This document shows, in pieces, positions 21,075-64,000 of a DNA stretch of 64,000 nucleotides. The notes below the pieces were generated by a model. It was not told the DNA's origin and made no database searches. It worked only from the letters and a program-made list of their open reading frames with translations. Both the position numbers and the translations under genes were made by a program. The DNA is from Methylocapsa acidiphila B2 (GTDB lineage: Bacteria > Pseudomonadota > Alphaproteobacteria > Rhizobiales > Beijerinckiaceae), in contig NZ_KE386496.1 in assembly GCF_000427445.1 (NCBI RefSeq), positions 3,388,004-3,452,003 of the forward strand, given 5' to 3'. Within the stretch, counting starts at the first letter, position 1; every line of letters starts with the position of its first letter.

Positions 21075-21698
21075 ATGGCGGTGGTCAAGACGAGAATCCT
21101 ACGCGAGGAATGGGAGGTTGAGGCCCGCCTTGCCAAGCTGCAGCTTAATAAACGTAAGCTTCTTGAGGTCCGTTCGACGGCGATTGCCGCTGCGGCTGAC
21201 GCTACCCCCTTTCATCCGGCTAACGCTGCGGGAACTTTTTCATATCAGCATGGCACCTTCGCGCTCCGAAATGAGTGTGTAGGAGAAAAGTGGGAGATCG
21301 ACCGACCTAATGGCGTCGAAGCCATTCGGAATGAGGCGATCCGGGTCAAGGTCGTATTCGCCAATGTCGATGTCGCGTGCAATGACGAGCATGAACCGAA
21401 GCCCCGCTCAACCAAAGGCGCGGGCGCAGAGCGTCTCTGTGCCGACAATCTATTTGGAGAAACCTTGCCACGTTTCGCGCTGATTTCTGACGGCGACGGC
21501 TGGGTCATCTATTATCTTATGGTCGCTCCGAATGGAGCCGTTGAACTGAGCTGCCCAGTTGTCAAGGGCGGAACGTTCGAATCGTTCGTCGAACGTCTAT
21601 ATTTGTCGGACGGAAGCGATCTCGAAAGCGAACCGAAACTATCGCTGGACGATCAAGACATCGCCAACGATTTCGATCCGAAGATCGCGCGCAAATAA
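21075..21698 (+). CDS. unknown protein, first gene of a module with an XRE/ImmA protease
   Basis: A 207-residue protein with no family I recognise. The N-terminal 30 residues are helical and charged. The middle contains ALISDGDGWVIYYLMVAPNGAVELSCPVV, which looks like a beta-sheet core, and the C-terminus is acidic. No signal peptide or membrane helix is visible. It ends four bases before the ATG of the XRE/ImmA gene, so the two are almost certainly co-transcribed and possibly translationally coupled. Local base composition is lower in GC than the flanking core genes. By position it could be the toxin or effector partner of a toxin-antitoxin-like pair; this is inference. Confidence 0.65.
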   Translation: MAVVKTRILREEWEVEARLAKLQLNKRKLLEVRSTAIAAAADATPFHPANAAGTFSYQHGTFALRNECVGEKWEIDRPNGVEAIRNEAIRVKVVFANVDVACNDEHEPKPRSTKGAGAERLCADNLFGETLPRFALISDGDGWVIYYLMVAPNGAVELSCPVVKGGTFESFVERLYLSDGSDLESEPKLSLDDQDIANDFDPKIARK

Positions 21699-21702
21699 CC
21701 CG

Positions 21703-22785
21703 ATGATCACGAAGTTCAATCCGAAGAGGCTCATCCTTGCCCGGAAGCGGCGACGCCTGACGGGGAAAGACCTTGCTACGATTGCCGGTATTTCAGCCGT
21801 AACGATCTCGCGCGTTGAAAATGGCGACAATGAGCCTGACGAAGGAACCATCGCGCGGCTCGGATCGGCACTTAATTATCCCCAGGGCTTTTTCTTTGCG
21901 GATGATCCTGAAGAACTTGATACGAAGGCAGTGAGCTTTCGCAGTTTAACGAAGATGAGCGCGAAGGAGCGGGACGCTGCGATCGCAGCAGGTTGCTTGG
22001 GTGTGCAACTGAGCGATTGGCTTGAGGACCAGTTTAGTCTACCGGATACGAATCTGATCGATCTCAGCTACGAGACCGACGCCGAGGCAGCGGCTGGCGC
22101 TCTACGAGCATTCTGGGGATTAGGTGAGAAGCCTATTGGCAACATGATTGGGTTATTGGAGGTGCATGGTGTTCGGGTGTTCTCATTGTCGGAGGCGACC
22201 AAGACTGTCGATGCTTTTTCTTTCTGGCGAGACGACAGGCCGTTCGTTTTTCTGAACAACTTTAAAACCGCAGAGCACAGTATTTATGATTCGGCCCATG
22301 AATTATGCCACCTCGTGATGCATCGGCACGCGGGAGCACAGCCGTCACGGGCGGCGGAGCGGGAAGCTAATCAGTTTGCGTCTGCGTTTCTGATGCCGGC
22401 TAACGATGTGCGGCCGCGCATGCCTAAGTTTATTACCGTGGATATTATTATTAGAGCGAAGGCGCGTTGGCGCGTCTCTGCGATGGCAATGGCGTATCGT
22501 CTCCATTCGCTCGGAATGCTGAGTGAGTGGCAATACAAGTCCGCCTGCATTGAGTTGGGCCGCCGAGGATACCGCACAGGCGAACCTAACGGCATAGAGC
22601 GCGAAACGTCAGCTATATTGCGAAAGGTGCTTTCGCATCTGTGGGGCGAGCGCACTACGAAGCGGGAGATCGCCGGGTTCCTGCATCTTCCACAAGATGA
22701 ACTGGAGGGGCTCATTTGGGGTCTCGCAGGGCCAATCGTTCGCCCTGGGAGGGATAGCGAACGACCTGGGCTACGATTAGTCTAA
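21703..22785 (+). CDS. XRE-family HTH regulator fused to an ImmA/IrrE metallopeptidase
   Basis: A 360-residue fusion. Residues 5-60 form a Cro/XRE helix-turn-helix (LTGKDLATIAGISAVTISRVENG). The C-terminal half is an ImmA/IrrE zinc protease with HExxH as HELCH (H199, E200, H203) and the downstream glutamate in EREANQFASAFLMP (about E221). Such fusions cleave or bind repressors and often control mobile elements, toxin-antitoxin pairs or stress responses. It begins four bases after the unknown upstream gene, and an IS element lies 45 bp downstream. Codon use is more AT-rich than that of neighbours (for example GATATTATTATTAGAGCG), a sign of transfer. Confidence 0.88.
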   Translation: MITKFNPKRLILARKRRRLTGKDLATIAGISAVTISRVENGDNEPDEGTIARLGSALNYPQGFFFADDPEELDTKAVSFRSLTKMSAKERDAAIAAGCLGVQLSDWLEDQFSLPDTNLIDLSYETDAEAAAGALRAFWGLGEKPIGNMIGLLEVHGVRVFSLSEATKTVDAFSFWRDDRPFVFLNNFKTAEHSIYDSAHELCHLVMHRHAGAQPSRAAEREANQFASAFLMPANDVRPRMPKFITVDIIIRAKARWRVSAMAMAYRLHSLGMLSEWQYKSACIELGRRGYRTGEPNGIERETSAILRKVLSHLWGERTTKREIAGFLHLPQDELEGLIWGLAGPIVRPGRDSERPGLRLV

Positions 22786-53964: not shown

Positions 53965-54954
53965 ATGGATCTCCGTTCGACCGCCGATAATCCCGTTCCG
54001 CCCGACGCCGCTGTCGCTTGGATGAGAACGCGCGACAAGCTGACCCTCCGCGCCGCGTGCTGGACAAGCGGCCCGGCCGCGCGCGGCACGGTCGCGATTC
54101 TGCCTGGGCGCGCCGAATTCATCGAAAAATATTTCGAGGTCATCGGCGAATTGATCACGCGCAATTTCGACGTGGCGATCCTCGACTGGCGCGGGCAAGG
54201 CCTTTCCGACAGGCTCCTCGGCAATCGCCGCAAAGGCCATGTCCGGCGTTTCGGCGACTATGAAGCGGATCTCGACGCGCTGCAGGACGAGGTTCTCGCG
54301 CCTTTTTGTCGCAAGCCCTGGTTCGCGCTTGGCCATTCCATGGGCGGGGCGATCGCGCTGGCCCAGGCCCGCGCGGGCCGATCTCCTTTCGATCGCATTG
54401 TCGCGACGGCCCCCATGATCGATCTCAAGGGGCTACGATTCCCGCGCATGTCTCGATTTTTGGCGCGCGCCCTTTCGCTATGCGGCTTCAAGACCGCTTT
54501 TGTGCCGGGCGGCGGCGGCAGGCCTTACATGTCCTCCGGATTCCAAGGCAACTTGCTGACCTCGGACCCGGAGCGTCATGTCCGTTTCGCCTCGATCCTC
54601 GATTTCGCCCCGGAACTTGGCATTGGCGACCCAACGATCGGATGGGTGGACGGAGCCTTCCGGCTGATGCGCGGCTTCGAGGACGCCGAGTTTCCACGCC
54701 GGATCCTGACTCCGACCTTGATCATGGCCGCTGGCGACGACAAAATCGTCGACACGGTGGCGACAGAAACCTTCGCCGGCCGGTTGAAGGCTGGGCGGTT
54801 CATCACGCTGCCGCATGCGCGGCATGAAATTCTAATGGAGCGCGACGCCTTTCGGGAACAGTTCTGGGCGGCCTTCGACGCTTTCGTTCCGGGTCAGGAC
54901 GAACCCAAGCAGCGTCGGATCCGCGCCGCCGGAGACCAGCGCGCTTCGGCCTGA
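53965..54954 (+). CDS. alpha/beta hydrolase, lysophospholipase-like
   Basis: A 329-residue serine hydrolase of the PldB/monoacylglycerol lipase group. The nucleophile elbow is ALGHSMGGAIAL, the oxyanion/DWRG region is VAILDWRGQGLSDR, the aspartate is in IMAAGDDKIVD and the histidine in LPHARHEILMERD. No signal peptide is visible, so a cytoplasmic or inner-face location is likely. Substrate is inferred from the family. It is convergent with dprA. Confidence 0.88.
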   Translation: MDLRSTADNPVPPDAAVAWMRTRDKLTLRAACWTSGPAARGTVAILPGRAEFIEKYFEVIGELITRNFDVAILDWRGQGLSDRLLGNRRKGHVRRFGDYEADLDALQDEVLAPFCRKPWFALGHSMGGAIALAQARAGRSPFDRIVATAPMIDLKGLRFPRMSRFLARALSLCGFKTAFVPGGGGRPYMSSGFQGNLLTSDPERHVRFASILDFAPELGIGDPTIGWVDGAFRLMRGFEDAEFPRRILTPTLIMAAGDDKIVDTVATETFAGRLKAGRFITLPHARHEILMERDAFREQFWAAFDAFVPGQDEPKQRRIRAAGDQRASA

Positions 54955-54974: not shown

Positions 54975-56309
54975 TCACGAGGCGCGGCCGCCAGAGTCTC
55001 CGCGAGGCTGAAAGTTCCCCAGCATGGCGACCAGATCGCCGCCGCGCCATTCGAGCCGACCGGCGAGCTCGAGTTCGAGCAATATGGCGCGAACCTCGCG
55101 CGCTTGACCTTCCGAGGCGCGCACCAACTCGTCGACCGAAACGGGCGTCGGCCCGAGCAGCTCGACGACGCGGGCCGCGAGATCCGTCGGCGATGGCGCG
55201 GGCCGCGTTTCGGCGGGGACGGTCCATGGACCAGGGGCCTCTACGGGCGTCGGGCTCCTGATGGCGCGCGGCGGAGCAAGATCGCGGAGCGTCGGATCTG
55301 CGCTGGCGTCGAGGGCTGCGCCGGCCTCGCCCGGCAGATCGAGCTCCTCCCAGAGCGGCGCGTCGAGCCCTTCGGCGAGGCCCGGCTCGAAAAGGCTGAA
55401 ATGCTCATCCAAATCCCAGTCCTGCTTGGCGAGCGCCTCAATCACGTCTTGCGCGCTGGTGCAGAAGGTCGCCCCGTCGCGCAGCAGATCGTTCGTCCCT
55501 TCCGCGCGCGGATCGAGCGGCGAGCCGGGCGCGGCGAAAATCTCGCGGCCTTGCTCGGCGGCGAAGCGCGCGGTGATGAGAGAGCCAGACCGGCGGGCGG
55601 CCTCGATCACGACGACGCCGCGCGACAATCCGGCGACGATCCGATTGCGGCGCGGAAAATCGCGTCCGCGCGCTTCCCAGCCGAAGGGCATTTCGCTGAT
55701 CGCCGCGCCCTGATCGACAAGCCGCTCCAGCAGCCCCGCGTGGTCGGTCGGATAAATATTGCCTAAGCCTCCGACCAGCACCGCAATCGTGCCGGTTTCG
55801 ATCGTCGCTTGGTGCGCCCGCGCATCAATTCCGCGCGCGAGCCCCGAGACCACGACATGGCCGGCTCGCCCGACGCCGCGGGCGATCTGCTCCGTGAAGG
55901 CGAGCCCGGCCGCCGAGGCGTTGCGCGAGCCGACGATCGCGACTTTGGAGCGGGCGAGACAGGCAAGGCTGCCGCGCAGGGCGATCAAGGGCGGCGCGGC
56001 GTCGATTCGGCGCAGCAGCGCCGGATAGGCGGGCTCGCAAAATCCGATCAAAACGGCGCCAGCGCGCCGCATCGCCTCCAATTCGCGCTCGATGTCCTCG
56101 AAGGTTGCAAGGCGAATGGGCCGGCCCGGCCTGCCGCGCGCGATCAGATCCGGCAAAGCCTCGAGCGCGGCGGCGGCGGCGCCATAGCGGTCCAAAAGGA
56201 CGCGAAACGTGCGAGGCCCGATATTCTCGCTGCGCGCGAGCCGCAGCCAGTCGAAGCGCTCCGCCTCGGTCAACGCTCTGGCGGCGACGGAGGCGAGGGG
56301 CTCGGCCAT
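54975..56309 (-). CDS. dprA: DNA processing protein DprA
   Basis: DprA (Smf) loads RecA onto incoming single-stranded DNA in natural transformation. The Rossmann-like core has VAIVGSRNASAAGLAFTEQIARGVG, VVSGLARGIDARAHQATI, PFGWEARGRDFPRRNRIVAGLSRGVVVIEAA and AAPGSPLDPRAEGTN. An N-terminal SAM-like region and a C-terminal winged-helix (DprA_WH) domain flank it; the linker is rich in acidic and proline residues. The start ATG at 56309 abuts the plsY stop, so the two are coupled. Length of 444 residues is on the long side because of the linker. Confidence 0.93.
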   Translation of the reverse strand: MAEPLASVAARALTEAERFDWLRLARSENIGPRTFRVLLDRYGAAAAALEALPDLIARGRPGRPIRLATFEDIERELEAMRRAGAVLIGFCEPAYPALLRRIDAAPPLIALRGSLACLARSKVAIVGSRNASAAGLAFTEQIARGVGRAGHVVVSGLARGIDARAHQATIETGTIAVLVGGLGNIYPTDHAGLLERLVDQGAAISEMPFGWEARGRDFPRRNRIVAGLSRGVVVIEAARRSGSLITARFAAEQGREIFAAPGSPLDPRAEGTNDLLRDGATFCTSAQDVIEALAKQDWDLDEHFSLFEPGLAEGLDAPLWEELDLPGEAGAALDASADPTLRDLAPPRAIRSPTPVEAPGPWTVPAETRPAPSPTDLAARVVELLGPTPVSVDELVRASEGQAREVRAILLELELAGRLEWRGGDLVAMLGNFQPRGDSGGRAS

Positions 56310-56891
56310 TCAGCTTCGCCCGATCTTGGTCTCGGAGCCGGCGCGAAGGCGATTGATATTCGGCGCATGCTTGGCCCAAAGGAGGACCGCTAGAAGCGCA
56401 AAAAGCGCCGCGGCTTCCGGCCGGTGGAGGGCGAGCAGAACCAAGGGCGTCGCCGCGCTCGCCGAAAGCGCGGCGACCGAGGAATAGCGCGTGGCCCAGG
56501 CGACGGCGAGCCAGCTCAGGCCGAAAGCGAAAGCGGCTGGCCAAGCAAGGCCCAAAAGGCAGCCGATGAAGGTCGCGACGCCCTTGCCGCCCTTGAACCC
56601 GAGCCAGACGGGAAATAAATGGCCCAAAAACGCGCCGAGCGCCGCCGCGAGCGGGGGGTGGCCAGGCGCAAGGGCCGCGACGAGCAGGACCGCGGCGGTT
56701 CCCTTCAGCAGGTCGAGCAAGAGGGTCAGCGCCGCCAGGTCCTTGCGCCCCGTGCGCAGGACATTAGTCGCGCCGATATTGCCCGAGCCGATCGAGCGCA
56801 AATCCGCCGTGCCGCCGAGGCGCGTGAGGATCAGGCCGAACGGAATCGAGCCCAGGGCGTAGCCAAAGAGGAAGGCGAGGAGGAAAGGCAC
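56310..56891 (-). CDS. plsY: glycerol-3-phosphate acyltransferase PlsY
   Basis: PlsY transfers the acyl group of acyl-phosphate to glycerol-3-phosphate, the first step of phospholipid synthesis, in the inner membrane. The three conserved loops are GSIPFGLIL with [11 protein letters not shown] (motif 1), [20 protein letters not shown] (motif 2) and a later SLSA-rich region. Five or more membrane helices are visible. The length of 193 residues is normal. dprA follows without a gap. In relatives pyrC usually lies directly upstream; here it does not. Confidence 0.94.
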
Positions 56892-58583: not shown

Positions 58584-60608
58584 ATGAACCCGGTTGAAAC
58601 CGTCGAACCACTTGTCGAGGCCACCTTCGAATTCGATCTCGTCGGTCGGGTCCGCAACCTCGGTCTGCCAGCCTCCGCCACAAACTCATTGCTCCCATTG
58701 TTCGAAGCAGTAAGCAATGGGCTCCACGCCATTGATAGCCGCTGGAAGGACATGGCGTCCTCCGCTGGCGAGATCAAGATCACAATCCTACGGCGTGGTG
58801 ACAGGGAAGACGGCGGCATTGTGGGATTTAAGGTCACCGATAATGGCGTCGGTTTAACAGAGGAGAACTGGAAGTCATTCCGGACATCCGACTCAGACTT
58901 GAAGATCACTCGGGGCGGTAAGGGCATAGGTCGGCTTGCTTGGCTCAAGGCATTCAGCGATTGTGAGATAATCAGTCAATTCGAGGGCGTCGACGGCTGT
59001 ATGCAACGGTCGTTCTCGTTTACACTGCATAAGGGGCGGAATCCCATCCATTCTCACGAACTGAAGCGGATGACACCGCAAAGAGAGATTGGCACCACTG
59101 TTCATCTCTGTCCGTTTGAGATAAGTTTCGAAGCGCATTGCCCCAGGAAGGCATCGACTATCGCCGCAAAGTTGGTTGGACACTTCCTAAGCTACTTCGT
59201 GACTGGAAGCCTCCCGCGGATAACGCTGATCGATGGCGTAGAGACTATCAACCTGCAAACCTACTACTCAGACAACCAACAGCGGCATGACCATAAAATA
59301 CTTGAAGTTACCCTCGACCTACTAGAAAAGCCGTCGAAATTTGACATCTACCATGTGCTCCTCCGCAAGCAGCTCAAATTCCAAGAGGGTGGGCATCATT
59401 GGATTTTCTATGCAGGGAACGAGCGCGTCGCTGACCAGGAGATGATTGACAGTCAACTCGGGCTCAAATACCTCGGTGAAAACGGTGATTGCGTATATGT
59501 CGGACTGGTCACTGGGGAATACCTAGATAACCATGTGAATCAAGAGCGGACTAGCTTCACCTTTTCTAGGGAGCAGATGGCCGAGATCCACAAGGCGGCG
59601 ATCGCGTCGGCCAAGGAATTTCTTAAACAATACATCGACCGCATCCGCGAACAGCAGGTCGAGACGACGGATCGCATCATTCGGAATAACCCGCAGTTTC
59701 TACCGTTCCGTGATGCCCTCGCTGATTTCGTGGAAAACAACTTGTCGTTGAATACCCAGGGCGAGGAAGAGAAATTTCTTGAGCTGAGCCGCAGGAAACT
59801 ACGTGCAAAACGCCGGCTGGATGGGCAACTAAAGACGCTGAAAGATGAAGGTCCTGATAGCGTTCAGGCCAGCGTCGAGCAGATCACGAAGGCTCTCAAC
59901 GATGAGAAAAAAGGCAGTCTTGCTGAATATGTCGTTCGGCGTAAGGCGATTCTCGACCTGCTGGATTCTTCATTGGCTTTCAAAGACCAAGCAAAACGAA
60001 AGCACTACAAGGAAGAGGTGATTCACGATCTAATTGTCCCTCTACGATCAAATTCAGAAGATCTAGACTACAACCAACATAACCTTTGGATACTTGACGA
60101 TAGATTGGCGTTTTATTCGTTTTTCCGTAGTGACAAGCCATTCAGCACCTTCACCGACGGAGACAGCGGGCGGGAACCTGATCTCGCTATCATTTTTGAG
60201 CAGTCTCTTGCCTTTCGTCGGGAGGGGAGGGATGAGCCGGTTGTAATCATCGAATTCAAGCGACCAGGCCGAACCGAATATGACGGCAACTCAAACCCTG
60301 TGACTCAGGTACTTGAGTACGTAGACCTTTTTCGTGCTGGAAAAGCAGTAATGGACAAGAACGGTAACCTAATTAAGCCGATCACTATGGCAACCCGGTT
60401 CGTCTGCTTCATCGTGGCTGACTTTACCGACAACCTGAAAAAAGTCCTTCGTTACTCGATCGCCTCACATCCGACAGCCGACGGTGAGGGCTTCTTCGGA
60501 GTGTCGACGGAGCACAACGCCAGCATCGAGGTTCTGCCGTACTCGAAAATACTCCGCGATGCAAAAATCAGAAACGAAGCATTTTTCAAGCATCTCGGTT
60601 TGGATTGA
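58584..60608 (+). CDS. GHKL ATPase fused to a PD-(D/E)XK-like nuclease domain
   Basis: A 674-residue protein of no named family known to me. The N-terminal third is a GHKL (Hsp90/MutL/kinase-type) ATPase: N-box E41 and N45 in LFEAVSNGLHAID, G1 as DNGVG (86-90), G2 as GGKGIGR (111-117) and G3 as GTT (170-172). Residues 320-480 are charged and partly coiled-coil. The C-terminal domain has EPDLAIIF (D533), then E557 and K559 in VVIIEFKRPGR, then QVLEYVDLF, the pattern of a PD-(D/E)XK nuclease. Base composition is clearly lower in GC than that of neighbours. The gene stands alone beside a decayed pyrC 3' end. An ATP-gated nuclease, possibly for anti-phage defence, is inferred. Confidence 0.75.
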   Translation: MNPVETVEPLVEATFEFDLVGRVRNLGLPASATNSLLPLFEAVSNGLHAIDSRWKDMASSAGEIKITILRRGDREDGGIVGFKVTDNGVGLTEENWKSFRTSDSDLKITRGGKGIGRLAWLKAFSDCEIISQFEGVDGCMQRSFSFTLHKGRNPIHSHELKRMTPQREIGTTVHLCPFEISFEAHCPRKASTIAAKLVGHFLSYFVTGSLPRITLIDGVETINLQTYYSDNQQRHDHKILEVTLDLLEKPSKFDIYHVLLRKQLKFQEGGHHWIFYAGNERVADQEMIDSQLGLKYLGENGDCVYVGLVTGEYLDNHVNQERTSFTFSREQMAEIHKAAIASAKEFLKQYIDRIREQQVETTDRIIRNNPQFLPFRDALADFVENNLSLNTQGEEEKFLELSRRKLRAKRRLDGQLKTLKDEGPDSVQASVEQITKALNDEKKGSLAEYVVRRKAILDLLDSSLAFKDQAKRKHYKEEVIHDLIVPLRSNSEDLDYNQHNLWILDDRLAFYSFFRSDKPFSTFTDGDSGREPDLAIIFEQSLAFRREGRDEPVVIIEFKRPGRTEYDGNSNPVTQVLEYVDLFRAGKAVMDKNGNLIKPITMATRFVCFIVADFTDNLKKVLRYSIASHPTADGEGFFGVSTEHNASIEVLPYSKILRDAKIRNEAFFKHLGLD

Positions 60609-60689
60609 TAGCTGGACGAGCGACGCAGGAATTCGCAAGCCTGAACCCAAAATTTTGTACCGTCTGGTTTGCCTCCTTTAGACCGACCC

Positions 60690-60925
60690 TCACTCCCCGC
60701 CAAACACAATCTCCCCCCGCCACGAGCGTCAGCTTCACTTTTCTCTCCATCCGCGCCTCATCGAACGGCGTGTTCTTGCAGCGCGAATGGAGTTTCGCCG
60801 GATCGACCACATAGGGCTCATCGGGATCGAAGCGGATGAGATCGGTCGGCGCGCCGATTTTCAGCCGTCCTTGCGGGAGGCCCAGGATCTCGGCGGGGCG
60901 GATCGTCATGGCGGCGAGCAGGCGG
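60690..60925 (-). pseudogene. pyrC: 3' end of dihydroorotase, frameshifted (copy 1)
   Basis: Codes for the C-terminal segment of PyrC: AAMTIRPAEILGLPQGRLKIGAPTDLIRFDPDEPYVVDPAKLHSRCKNTPFDEARM. The end, which reads VAGEIVFGGE-stop in copy 2, is displaced here by one extra C in a C-run (about 60711-60716). The N-terminal three quarters, with the catalytic residues, are absent. It lies between the ATPase-nuclease gene and the cytochromes. Confidence 0.85.
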
Positions 60926-60947
60926 CGTTCCAAAAAAGCTCCGATGA

Positions 60948-61559
60948 TCATTCAAGGGACTCGTAGGCGACAAAGCTCAGATATGAGGCGAGCGCGTCAA
61001 TTTCATTTGGGGACAATGCGCGCGTAATTTGAGGCATGGGCTCAGCCGCTGCATGAAACCCTTGGCCCCACTGCTCGAGTCTTCTTTTCAAATAGGCATG
61101 GGACAGCCCGCCCAAACGCGGAATTTCTCTGATCCCCTCGGCATTGGGACCGTGGCAGACAAGGCACGCGGCGACATTGGCCTCGGCGATCCCCAGCTCA
61201 TAGATCGCTCGCCCCTGGGCCGCGAGCTGCGGATCTCCGTCATTGGCGGCTTTGGGCGGCAATGACGAGAAATAGGCAGCGAAATCCCGCATCGCTTCGG
61301 GACTGAGATTTGCTGTAGCGCCCCACATATATTGTTGCGACAAAGGATTGTCGCGGATATGCGCGCTAAAGCTCAGAAGCTGATTCTCGATGTATTTTTC
61401 TCTTTGTCCGGCCAGTCGCGGCGCCGTGGAAAATCCCTGCGCCGACGATCCATGACACCAGGTGCAATTCCGGATCGGAAGAGACTCGCCTGCTGACAGC
61501 GGACCGGCAAGGGAAAAAACAATCGCCACGATCGCCGTTTTCGACTTGATGCGTTTCAT
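60948..61559 (-). CDS. di-haem cytochrome c (c4-like), exported
   Basis: About 203 residues with two CxxCH haem sites, RNCTWCHGSSAQG and AACLVCHGPNAEG, the second in the second half of the protein, giving two tandem cytochrome c domains. The N-terminal MKRIKSKTAIVAIVFSLAGPLSA is a signal peptide, so the product works in the periplasm. Methionine ligand candidates are in YMWGATANLS and EPMPQITRAL. ATG at 61559 chosen; the frame extends to 61598 but that extension precedes the signal peptide. It lies 35 bp downstream of a paralogue on the same strand. Confidence 0.88.
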   Translation of the reverse strand: MKRIKSKTAIVAIVFSLAGPLSAGESLPIRNCTWCHGSSAQGFSTAPRLAGQREKYIENQLLSFSAHIRDNPLSQQYMWGATANLSPEAMRDFAAYFSSLPPKAANDGDPQLAAQGRAIYELGIAEANVAACLVCHGPNAEGIREIPRLGGLSHAYLKRRLEQWGQGFHAAAEPMPQITRALSPNEIDALASYLSFVAYESLE

Positions 61560-61594
61560 GATCCAAGCTCTCGCGGCCTGTATGGCGATTGGAT

Positions 61595-62245
61595 TCATCT
61601 GAGACTGCCGACATAGGCCGCGATGGCGGCGACCTGCGCCTGCGTCAGATTATGCGTCGTCGCCGCCATGATGAACGACGTGTCGTCCTTCGCTGGACCT
61701 TGACCTCGTTCTTTGCTCCAATTGCCCAATGTCTTGACTGTGTAGGGAAAGAGCTGGCCCGCCAACCGAGGAATTTCGCCTTGGCCCTTGGCCTCCGGAC
61801 CATGGCACGCGGAGCATGCTGGTATATTGGCTTCGGGCAATCCAAGTTCATAAATTGTCTTTCCTAAGGCCACGGGCTCCTTTGGCGCTCCGCCTATAGG
61901 ATTCGTATTGAGATCCTTGAAATGGGCCGCCAAGGCCGCGACCATCGACGGACTGAGCGCATGCGCCACATTGGCCATGACGGGGTTCGACCGTCTGCGT
62001 TCATAAAAAGCCCGCAACTGATTCTCGAGATATTTGGGCTGCTGCCCAGCAAGTCTCGGCATGGGAAAATATCCACGATATCCCTGTCCCGACAGCCCAT
62101 GACAGGTTTTGCAATAGTCGAGCTTGGCCCGAAGCTCTTGCGATGAAAAGCCGGGCCCGCCCATCTCGTCGGCGCGGCTTGGCGCCGAAAGAACAAGCGC
62201 TAGGACCGCTGCTGGCAAAGCCAATCGTAAACCAATGACTTTCAT
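61595..62245 (-). CDS. di-haem cytochrome c (c4-like), exported
   Basis: A 216-residue periplasmic cytochrome with two CxxCH sites, YCKTCHGLSGQG and PACSACHGPEAKG, and a signal peptide in the first 25 residues. Between the sites is the block RLAGQQPKYLENQLRAFYERRRSNPVMANVAHALS, nearly shared with the protein encoded at 62767. It is first of a two-gene minus-strand unit. Electron-transfer partners are not identifiable here. No cytochrome maturation genes are in the window. Confidence 0.9.
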   Translation of the reverse strand: MKVIGLRLALPAAVLALVLSAPSRADEMGGPGFSSQELRAKLDYCKTCHGLSGQGYRGYFPMPRLAGQQPKYLENQLRAFYERRRSNPVMANVAHALSPSMVAALAAHFKDLNTNPIGGAPKEPVALGKTIYELGLPEANIPACSACHGPEAKGQGEIPRLAGQLFPYTVKTLGNWSKERGQGPAKDDTSFIMAATTHNLTQAQVAAIAAYVGSLR

Positions 62246-62766
62246 GATCCGGCCTCCGCGTTCTTCGTTTGCTGTTATTGCTCAATGATCTTCTTGCGAC
62301 TCGGGAGACGCCGAGTTCATGCGGTTTTTTGCTCTCCTTGGCCAGGCGCGGCGCGCCGACGCCGGAATGGAGGCGCTGACGATTTTTGTATGTTTCAGAC
62401 AAGGCGTGGCGCCCCTTTTCGCTGCTACTTCAAGGGCGGGCCACAGCTATCGACGAATTCGGCTTTTTCAGCGCTCCAAGATGGCTTTTGGCGGATGCAA
62501 CGTTCTTTTCTGGATTGGCGGCCTCGATCAGATAGCAATATGTGCTCAAATGGTCCCGTCATGATAAGCAGCTATGAAGACCGTTGTGCGTTCAAAGCCT
62601 CAGGCCGGCCAAATTTTGTTGATGTGATCCTCTTCGGCAACACATGCCCGATGCCGACGATTCCCCCCCAGAACGCTCGACTGGCTTGCGTCGCGGCAAT
62701 CTCTGGATTTTGGTTTGGATCAGCTCTCGGACAGTCATTGCGCGAGATAATGGTGGACGCCCGATC
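62246..62766. other. divergent gap between paralogous cytochrome c genes
   Basis: A stretch of 520 bp between divergent starts. Open frames exist on both strands, but none resembles a known protein and their composition is ordinary. The gap probably holds the two promoters and some decayed sequence. Confidence 0.45.
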
Positions 62767-63417
62767 ATGAAGATCTTCAGCTTACAGCCCCTTTTGCAAG
62801 CGGCGATTCTCGCCATCGTTTTTTCTGCGACGGGTCGCGCCGAGGACAGCGTTCCGGCGGCGTTCTCCAAGCAAGAGCTCGATGCGAAAATAGGATATTG
62901 CAAAACATGTCACGGGCTGTCCGGCCAGGGCTTTCGCGGAGCGTCTCCCATGCCGAGACTTGCGGGGCAGCAGCCCGAATATCTCGAAAATCAGCTGAAG
63001 GCCTTTATCGAGCGCAGGCGGACGAACCCTGTCATGTTCAACGTGGCCCATGTCTTGAGCCCGTCGATGGTCACGGCTTTGGCCGCGCATTTCAAGGATC
63101 TAAATCCCAAGCCGCTGGGCGGCGCGCCACGGGATCTCGCGCCGGCGGGGAAAAAAATCTATGATGAGGGACTGCCCGACGCCAACGTGCCTCCATGCGC
63201 CTCCTGTCATGGTCCGGAGGCCAAAGGCGAGGGGGCGTTTCCCCGTTTAGCGGGCCAGCTTCATGACTACCTCTCTAGGAAGCTGGCGAATTGGAGCAAA
63301 GAGCGGGGTCAGGACCCGGCAAAGCCAGATACGTCAGCAATTATGGAACCGATTGCCCATGGCCTGACGGAGCAGCAGATGGCCGCCGTCGCGGCCTATC
63401 TCAGCGATCTGGAATAG
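62767..63417 (+). CDS. di-haem cytochrome c (c4-like), exported
   Basis: A 216-residue cytochrome, close paralogue of the one at 61595-62245 but in opposite orientation. Haem sites are YCKTCHGLSGQG and PPCASCHGPEAKG; RLAGQQPEYLENQLKAFIERRRTNPVM is shared almost unchanged. The signal peptide spans about residues 1-23 (SATGRA-ED). ATG at 62767 chosen; a 41-residue extension upstream precedes the signal peptide. A decayed pyrC end follows 150 bp downstream. Confidence 0.9.
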   Translation: MKIFSLQPLLQAAILAIVFSATGRAEDSVPAAFSKQELDAKIGYCKTCHGLSGQGFRGASPMPRLAGQQPEYLENQLKAFIERRRTNPVMFNVAHVLSPSMVTALAAHFKDLNPKPLGGAPRDLAPAGKKIYDEGLPDANVPPCASCHGPEAKGEGAFPRLAGQLHDYLSRKLANWSKERGQDPAKPDTSAIMEPIAHGLTEQQMAAVAAYLSDLE

Positions 63418-63567
63418 GCCCATCCTTTGATTCGGATCATCTCGCCAATCACCCAACCATAACGCCCCTCTGCGGCGAGTCTTGTCGTTCAGTGGCGGGA
63501 TACGCGTTTAGGGCTATCGATCAAGCCCGCTGACCCACGCCGCCAAAGGGGTCTCGACGCGCGCCGC

Positions 63568-63787
63568 CTCACTCCCCGCCAAACACAATCTCCCCCGCCA
63601 CGAGCTTCAGCTTCACCCCCCACCTCTATCCCCGCGCCTGGTCAAACGGCTGTTCTTGCAGCGCGAATGGAGTTTCGCCGGATAGACCCCATAGGGCTCG
63701 TCGGGATCGAAGCAGATGAGATCAGCCGGCGCGCCGACCTTCAGCCATCCTTGCGGCAGCCATAAAATTCTCGGCGGGGCCGATCGC
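63568..63787 (-). pseudogene. pyrC: 3' end of dihydroorotase, decayed (copy 2)
   Basis: Read on the minus strand, it ends VKLKLVAGEIVFGGE-stop, a good PyrC C-terminus, and further upstream shows PDEPYGVYPAKLHSRCKN. Several small indels and an internal frame break make it non-functional. It has the same orientation as copy 1, at about 80 percent identity over 220 bp by eye. Confidence 0.8.
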
Positions 63788-63817
63788 CCACCCCTCGGAG
63801 CGCGTACATCTCCTCCC

Positions 63818-64000
63818 TCATCGCTTCGGCAGCAGCGTCTTCTCACGCGGCACGCCGCCGTCGCCTATGTCGAAGTCTGGATCGAGGACCGTCTTTCCCT
63901 GCTCGCCGACGAAGGCCGGCTGCGCCTTGATCCATTCGCTGGGCTTTTGCTGCTTGGCGTAGGCGAGAAGCCGCGCTTCGAGATCCTTCACGATCTCGGG
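63818..64000 (-). CDS. arylsulfatase, 3' end only
   Basis: The 60 C-terminal residues of a gene whose start lies beyond the window: DLEARLLAYAKQQKPSEWIK, then a tail GKTVLDPDFDIGDGGVPREKTLLPKR. This matches the end of large sulfatase-family (arylsulfatase) proteins. The catalytic CxPxR motif would be outside the window. The assignment is by resemblance of the tail alone. Confidence 0.6.
   Translation of the reverse strand, partial: PEIVKDLEARLLAYAKQQKPSEWIKAQPAFVGEQGKTVLDPDFDIGDGGVPREKTLLPKR

Follow-up and report, generated by a model that had tools for sequence, protein, structure and literature searches.

A lone GHKL ATPase-nuclease gene of Methylocapsa acidiphila B2 is very probably a paraMORC3-type (Shedu type I-D) defence gene

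What is the role of a single gene of lower GC content that lies beside broken gene ends in Methylocapsa acidiphila B2, and is it new? The gene is part of a stretch of 64,000 nucleotides (contig NZ_KE386496.1, positions 3,388,004 to 3,452,003), which was analysed as a whole and is here called the window. An earlier note, made from the letters of the sequence, had proposed a fusion of a GHKL ATPase with a PD-(D/E)XK nuclease and a candidate for an undescribed defence gene. The fusion, its accessory nature and defence as its most likely role stand. The reading as an undescribed gene was rejected, because such proteins were published as paraMORC3 in 2008 (PMC2292703) and as VcSduA in 2025 (PMC12137116). 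The window gene appears to belong to an already described defence family and to have been acquired horizontally. We regard it as very probable that the assignment to the paraMORC3 family, whose architecture is that of Shedu type I-D, the role in defence and the outline of a mechanism hold jointly. This is based on an intact gene under selection, ATP-site motifs, PD-(D/E)XK residues, a predicted fold of GHKL and S5 domains, a patchy spread and relatives in restriction-modification (RM) and other defence contexts.

According to Iyer, Abhiman and Aravind (2008), paraMORC3 proteins consist of a GHKL domain, an S5 domain and a C-terminal domain with an E-D-ExK signature, predicted to be an endonuclease of the restriction endonuclease (RE) fold (PMC2292703). 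The window gene has an open frame of 674 codons with an ATG start and without internal stop. All motifs named before were found at their positions: E41, N45, DNGVG 86-90, GGKGIGR 111-117, GTT 170-172, D533 and E557-F-K559. In alignment A3 all 37 rows keep E41, N45, D86, G88, G90, G111, G114, G116 and R117, and likewise E477, H481, D533, E557 and K559. This alignment took in 32 of 39 loci from viral contigs and omitted three near-duplicates (L029, L033, L053) and four partial loci (L055, L056, L058, L059). Compared with its closest relative, L008 from Acidocella (76.8% amino acid identity), the proportions of nonsynonymous (pN) and synonymous (pS) differences are 0.151 and 0.846, a pN/pS of about 0.18. 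The gene is coding and under purifying selection.

The GHKL fold is clearly supported by the predicted model, in line with the invariant ATP-binding residues. In a VIA-align comparison of the model, matches to MORC2, MORC3, MutL and Hsp90 span residues 14-362 and extend past the GHKL domain, pointing to an S5-type domain C-terminal to it. Nuclease chains are missing from this list, which is uninformative because the list spans model residues 14-362 only. Profile searches had been proposed earlier along with structure prediction. In Pfam, HATPase_c scores 22.8 bits against a curated cut-off of 26.4 and HATPase_c_3 scores 22.2 bits against one of 25, both thus below it, and the nuclease region has no match. 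NCBIfam gave weak matches only, PHROGs three weak ones, and phmmer against PDB sequences none at E<=1; the alignment profile reached topoisomerase VI B as its best PDB match at E 0.27. Among the 37 members, PADLOC matched five families (best E 0.0036), and SduA_C is absent among the matches listed at E<=1 (25 of 34 Pfam families).

The nuclease domain was reached by profile-profile comparison. Residues 430-674 were aligned by hhalign with six SduA_C domains (PF14082; DUF4263) of Shedu proteins, one adjoining the V. fluvialis homologue and five from genomes, all above the Pfam cut-off. This gave a probability of 94.8% (E 5.5e-8, 167 columns) with the D and E-x-K residues in register. The probability stays at 80-96% when single Shedu sequences are left out. 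On uncleaned columns one of 100 shuffles beat the true score via a 15-column artefact; cleaned columns were used instead, with a probability of 91.4% and a score of 49.0 that none of 150 column shuffles reached (maximum 21.0). Control profiles of the GHKL domain, the middle region and HsdM stayed below 1%, the reversed Shedu profile at 0.09% and the HsdR N-terminus at 0.75-1.05%, the last being weak evidence because this profile is shallow (2 to 3 sequences). In the model, the predicted order of elements (helix 477-484, strands 513-516, 534-537 and 553-558, helix 572-586, strand 606-611) fits a PD-(D/E)XK core. The assignment is thus supported by the invariant E477, D533 and E557-x-K559, the predicted secondary-structure order and the match to SduA_C. 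A scan of the viral contigs for Shedu relatives found none. A distant relative (L070:1459-3318, minus strand) has C-terminal Pfam matches to both HSDR_N (E 1.3e-4) and SduA_C (E 0.028), each under its cut-off, and this region may link the nuclease domains of paraMORC3 and Shedu.

Four homologous loci were found on genome contigs, among them L008 from Acidocella (77% identity), L006 from Dankookia (72%) and L007 from Bradyrhizobium (65%). In a midpoint-rooted tree of 57 homologue rows found in this analysis, the window protein joins L008, then L006, L007 and L002 (a Sphingomonas plasmid), with starred support at each step. That the gene stands outside any operon is correct for the window copy, judged by the neighbouring genes examined, but not for the family: L008 directly follows a type I RM operon, starting about 40-50 bp after hsdR of hsdM-hsdS-hsdR. 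The proposed survey of neighbourhoods favours defence. Among 16 of the 58 plasmid records, hand-picked for diversity, eight have genes at a distance of up to about 6 kb whose product names indicate defence: type I RM genes in V. fluvialis (plus a Shedu gene), Salinivibrio and Rhodococcus, a DNA methylase in Agrobacterium 1D1108, an Abi protein (AbiD according to PADLOC) in Thioclava, SIR2-HerA and a restriction enzyme in Manganitrophus, CBASS in Acinetobacter and AbiE in Hymenobacter. A PADLOC scan of nine hand-picked neighbours adds Gabija in Rhizobium CB3171 (L130, strong) and Sinorhizobium (L121, weaker), raising the count to 10 of 16. Toxin-antitoxin genes and one TIR gene were excluded from the positives, and six neighbourhoods remain uncounted (Sphingomonas, a Ti derivative with the TIR gene, A. 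vaccinii, Spirosoma with a truncated flank, Paraburkholderia and Bradyrhizobium barranii). The control is small, with six 24-kb stretches taken from 6 of these 16 plasmids and judged on product names alone without PADLOC; none of the six has a defence gene by that measure, and one carries an uncounted ADP-ribosyltransferase with an ADP-ribosylglycohydrolase. On the V. fluvialis plasmid (L001:8625-12019) a classical Shedu gene with SduA_C overlaps the start of the paraMORC3 gene by four bases at the end of the type I RM operon, so that two Shedu-like nucleases stand in tandem; the Salinivibrio operon (L004), otherwise similar, has no Shedu gene.

These RM links might be read in other ways. The alphaproteobacterial clade that the window protein forms with relatives from Acidocella, Dankookia, Bradyrhizobium and Sphingomonas might be a functional branch distinct from VcSduA and serve as a switchable RM companion, which we consider unlikely. 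Its ATP-gated nuclease would be able to attack DNA already marked or cut by a type I RM enzyme or, as in this genome, to act alone after leaving the operon. Also unlikely is an accessory type I RM subunit lost from its operon, which would either cooperate with a type I RM enzyme encoded at another place in the genome or police the DNA that this enzyme leaves. In line with such a subunit are the position of L008, the V. fluvialis and Salinivibrio copies that end type I RM operons and the Rhodococcus copy near hsdR/hsdM. The host genome has four N6_Mtase matches elsewhere, the strongest (HsdM-type) at C2:738641, at a distance of 2.7 Mb on the contig (or of 1.2 Mb, should the contig be circular), and cooperation with an RM system is an option named for paraMORC3 (Iyer et al., 2008; PMC2292703). 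Against it, the flanking genes in the window include no recognisable RM gene, none is named beside L002, L006 or L007 of the same clade among the genes examined, and VcSduA is active in E. coli without its neighbours (PMC12137116).

The distribution bears on a third possibility, a MutL-like DNA-repair nuclease with a cellular role, which we consider very improbable. The core-gene pattern expected of a mismatch-repair protein was not found: among the same-genus genomes listed 2 of 10 match, and the second match, L010, has 42% identity and is placed in a different clade of the tree. Any match occurs in 10 of 199 same-family genomes, five of them full length, its own included. Relatives lie on plasmids (58 records, 51 of them with a query coverage of 80% or more, and identity under 60% at every best place), on viral contigs and in one phage record, in contexts rich in defence and mobile genes. 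A profile scan matched 130 of 398 genomes, most listed rows being short generic HATPase matches; the listed rows that cover at least 550 of 660 profile positions are G000, G574, G535, G316, G540, G448 and G230. The patchy spread within family and genus, the placement in the tree and the plasmid and viral relatives together give a pattern of horizontal transfer, and a housekeeping repair gene was rejected on the patchy distribution. A decaying relic without present function, suggested by the broken gene ends next to the gene and by broken relatives (one in-frame stop in G540, copies in pieces in G448 and G052), is hardly credible given the full open frame, the kept catalytic residues and the purifying selection relative to L008, and was rejected.

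We return to a paraMORC3-type defence gene, against which several results have to be set. The window protein has no PADLOC 2.0.0 match, does not reach Pfam SduA_C at E<=10 and has no identifiable DNA sensor. Pfam revealed no defence gene in the flanks that it was used on, and none was seen in the neighbouring open reading frames examined around L006 and L007, two of the next-closest relatives. The Vibrionaceae relatives L001 and L004 are 31-32% identical and fall in the other main branch of the midpoint-rooted tree, and the likeness to VcSduA is drawn from its published description.

For a protein of the paraMORC3 type, the experiments on VcSduA from the V. cholerae WASA lineage, reported in Nature Microbiology, offer a guide. 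Either substitution, E27A in the ATPase or K557A in the nuclease, removes protection against Drexlerviridae. The growth curves are consistent with direct restriction, the culture is not lost during protection, and the protein protects V. cholerae from phage X29 in a ddmABC-deleted background (PMC12137116). The authors of that work connect VcSduA with paraMORC3 and assign it to Shedu type I-D, citing Gu et al. (2025) for the class (PMC12137116), and a 2025 paper on V. cholerae islands describes it again (PMC12409362). DefensePredictor lists HATPase among the domains of predicted systems (PMC13092281). By the mechanism that we propose, the window protein would dimerise via its GHKL domains and bind ATP, and its middle region would close in an ATP-driven manner as a clamp on invading DNA. 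ATP binding or hydrolysis would then license the C-terminal nuclease to cut the clamped DNA, and phage or plasmid would probably be restricted directly rather than via cell killing.

With this finding, a defence family whose experimental proof, as far as found, dates from 2025 gains a divergent branch in the Alphaproteobacteria; literature searched for paraMORC3, Shedu with GHKL and Shedu type I-D gave no title concerning this branch. In one branch the gene occurs alone as well as immediately after a type I RM operon, and this makes the question of what activates these ATP-gated nucleases testable. Annotation with PADLOC 2.0.0, Pfam and NCBIfam would miss the gene, because there is no PADLOC match and none above the curated cut-offs of the other two.

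The surroundings fit an accessory stretch. As noted earlier, the gene is lower in GC than its neighbours, with 50.9% and a GC at third codon positions (GC3) of 0.59; the upstream genes reach 70.3% and 0.81 (54975-56309), 67.9% and 0.82 (56310-56891) and 64.1% and 0.75 (53965-54954). The decayed gene ends proposed next to it are duplicated 3' ends of an amidohydrolase gene, one directly downstream (Table 1) and one at 63567-63846 (minus strand). We read this gene as pyrC, for dihydroorotase; the names dprA, plsY, pyrB and pyrC are readings of the sequences, and among these only the pyrC fragment was scanned (amidohydrolase). An intact copy (L096:7242-8579) lies behind a gene read as pyrB, about 25 kb off and in inverted orientation. 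The adjoining fragment is a likely border of the acquired DNA. L111 and L114, two relatives from the genus, have a pyrC-like match on the strand of plsY and 3-5 kb away from it, and the plsY-pyrC junction therefore looks rearranged in the window. Pfam recognised a SnoaL-like protein, c-type cytochromes, the amidohydrolase fragment and an alpha/beta hydrolase among the scanned flanking genes and left two without match. Given these flanks, the window copy appears to stand alone. A scan for promoters and terminators gave no promoter-like site and one terminator-like site, within the window gene. The amidohydrolase ends flank a block of three c-type cytochrome genes at 60948-63417. Two of these genes are on the minus strand and the third is on the plus strand, and a pair among them makes up an inverted repeat that has diverged (468 nt, 73%). 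Elsewhere in the window, a protein with a helix-turn-helix and an M78 (IrrE-like) peptidase is encoded at 21559-22785. GC is lower there too, at 0.54-0.57 over 21-24 kb, and this second stretch may be a further acquired element.

Table 1. Features of the window gene and the adjoining gene end, with positions in the window
Feature	Position	Strand	Basis
paraMORC3-type gene, 674 aa: GHKL ATPase, S5-like region, helical connector, PD-(D/E)XK nuclease (predicted)	58584..60608	+	frame, motifs, alignment, predicted model
GHKL ATPase and S5/transducer module, residues ~14-362 of model	58623..59669	+	E41, N45, D86-G90, GGKGIGR 111-117, T171
Long-helix connector, residues ~363-466 (predicted)	59670..59980	+	model helices 348-368, 394-422, 428-464
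C-terminal PD-(D/E)XK nuclease domain, residues ~477-674 (predicted)	60012..60605	+	E477/H481, P532-D533, E557-F-K559, Q575; hhalign to SduA_C
Duplicated 3' end of amidohydrolase gene (pyrC as read here), directly downstream of window gene	60650..60951	-	Pfam amidohydrolase; likely border of acquired stretch

How does the window protein compare with known systems? With the GHKL ATPases of MORC, SMCHD1 and MutL it shares the predicted GHKL and S5 fold; to our knowledge, these have no C-terminal PD-(D/E)XK domain. The nuclease domain of Shedu SduA is related by profile-profile comparison, with active-site residues in register, although the window protein has no Pfam-level match to it, and classical SduA, as far as we know, lacks the GHKL/S5 module. 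VcSduA differs in that the Vibrionaceae relatives of the window protein belong to another main branch, and agrees in being a single-gene GHKL ATPase with a C-terminal PD-(D/E)XK nuclease whose E27 and K557 stand at positions similar to E41 and K559; in a viral-contig relative (L027) the catalytic residues fall at 27 and 557, given the start chosen here. From paraMORC3, compared by published description, no difference was found. Like that family, part of which is RM-linked and a nuclease-bearing subset of which stands alone (PMC2292703), the window protein and its relatives are patchily spread in proteobacteria and join an N-terminal GHKL domain with conserved ATP motifs to an S5-type domain and a C-terminal RE-fold with E-D-ExK, as predicted here.
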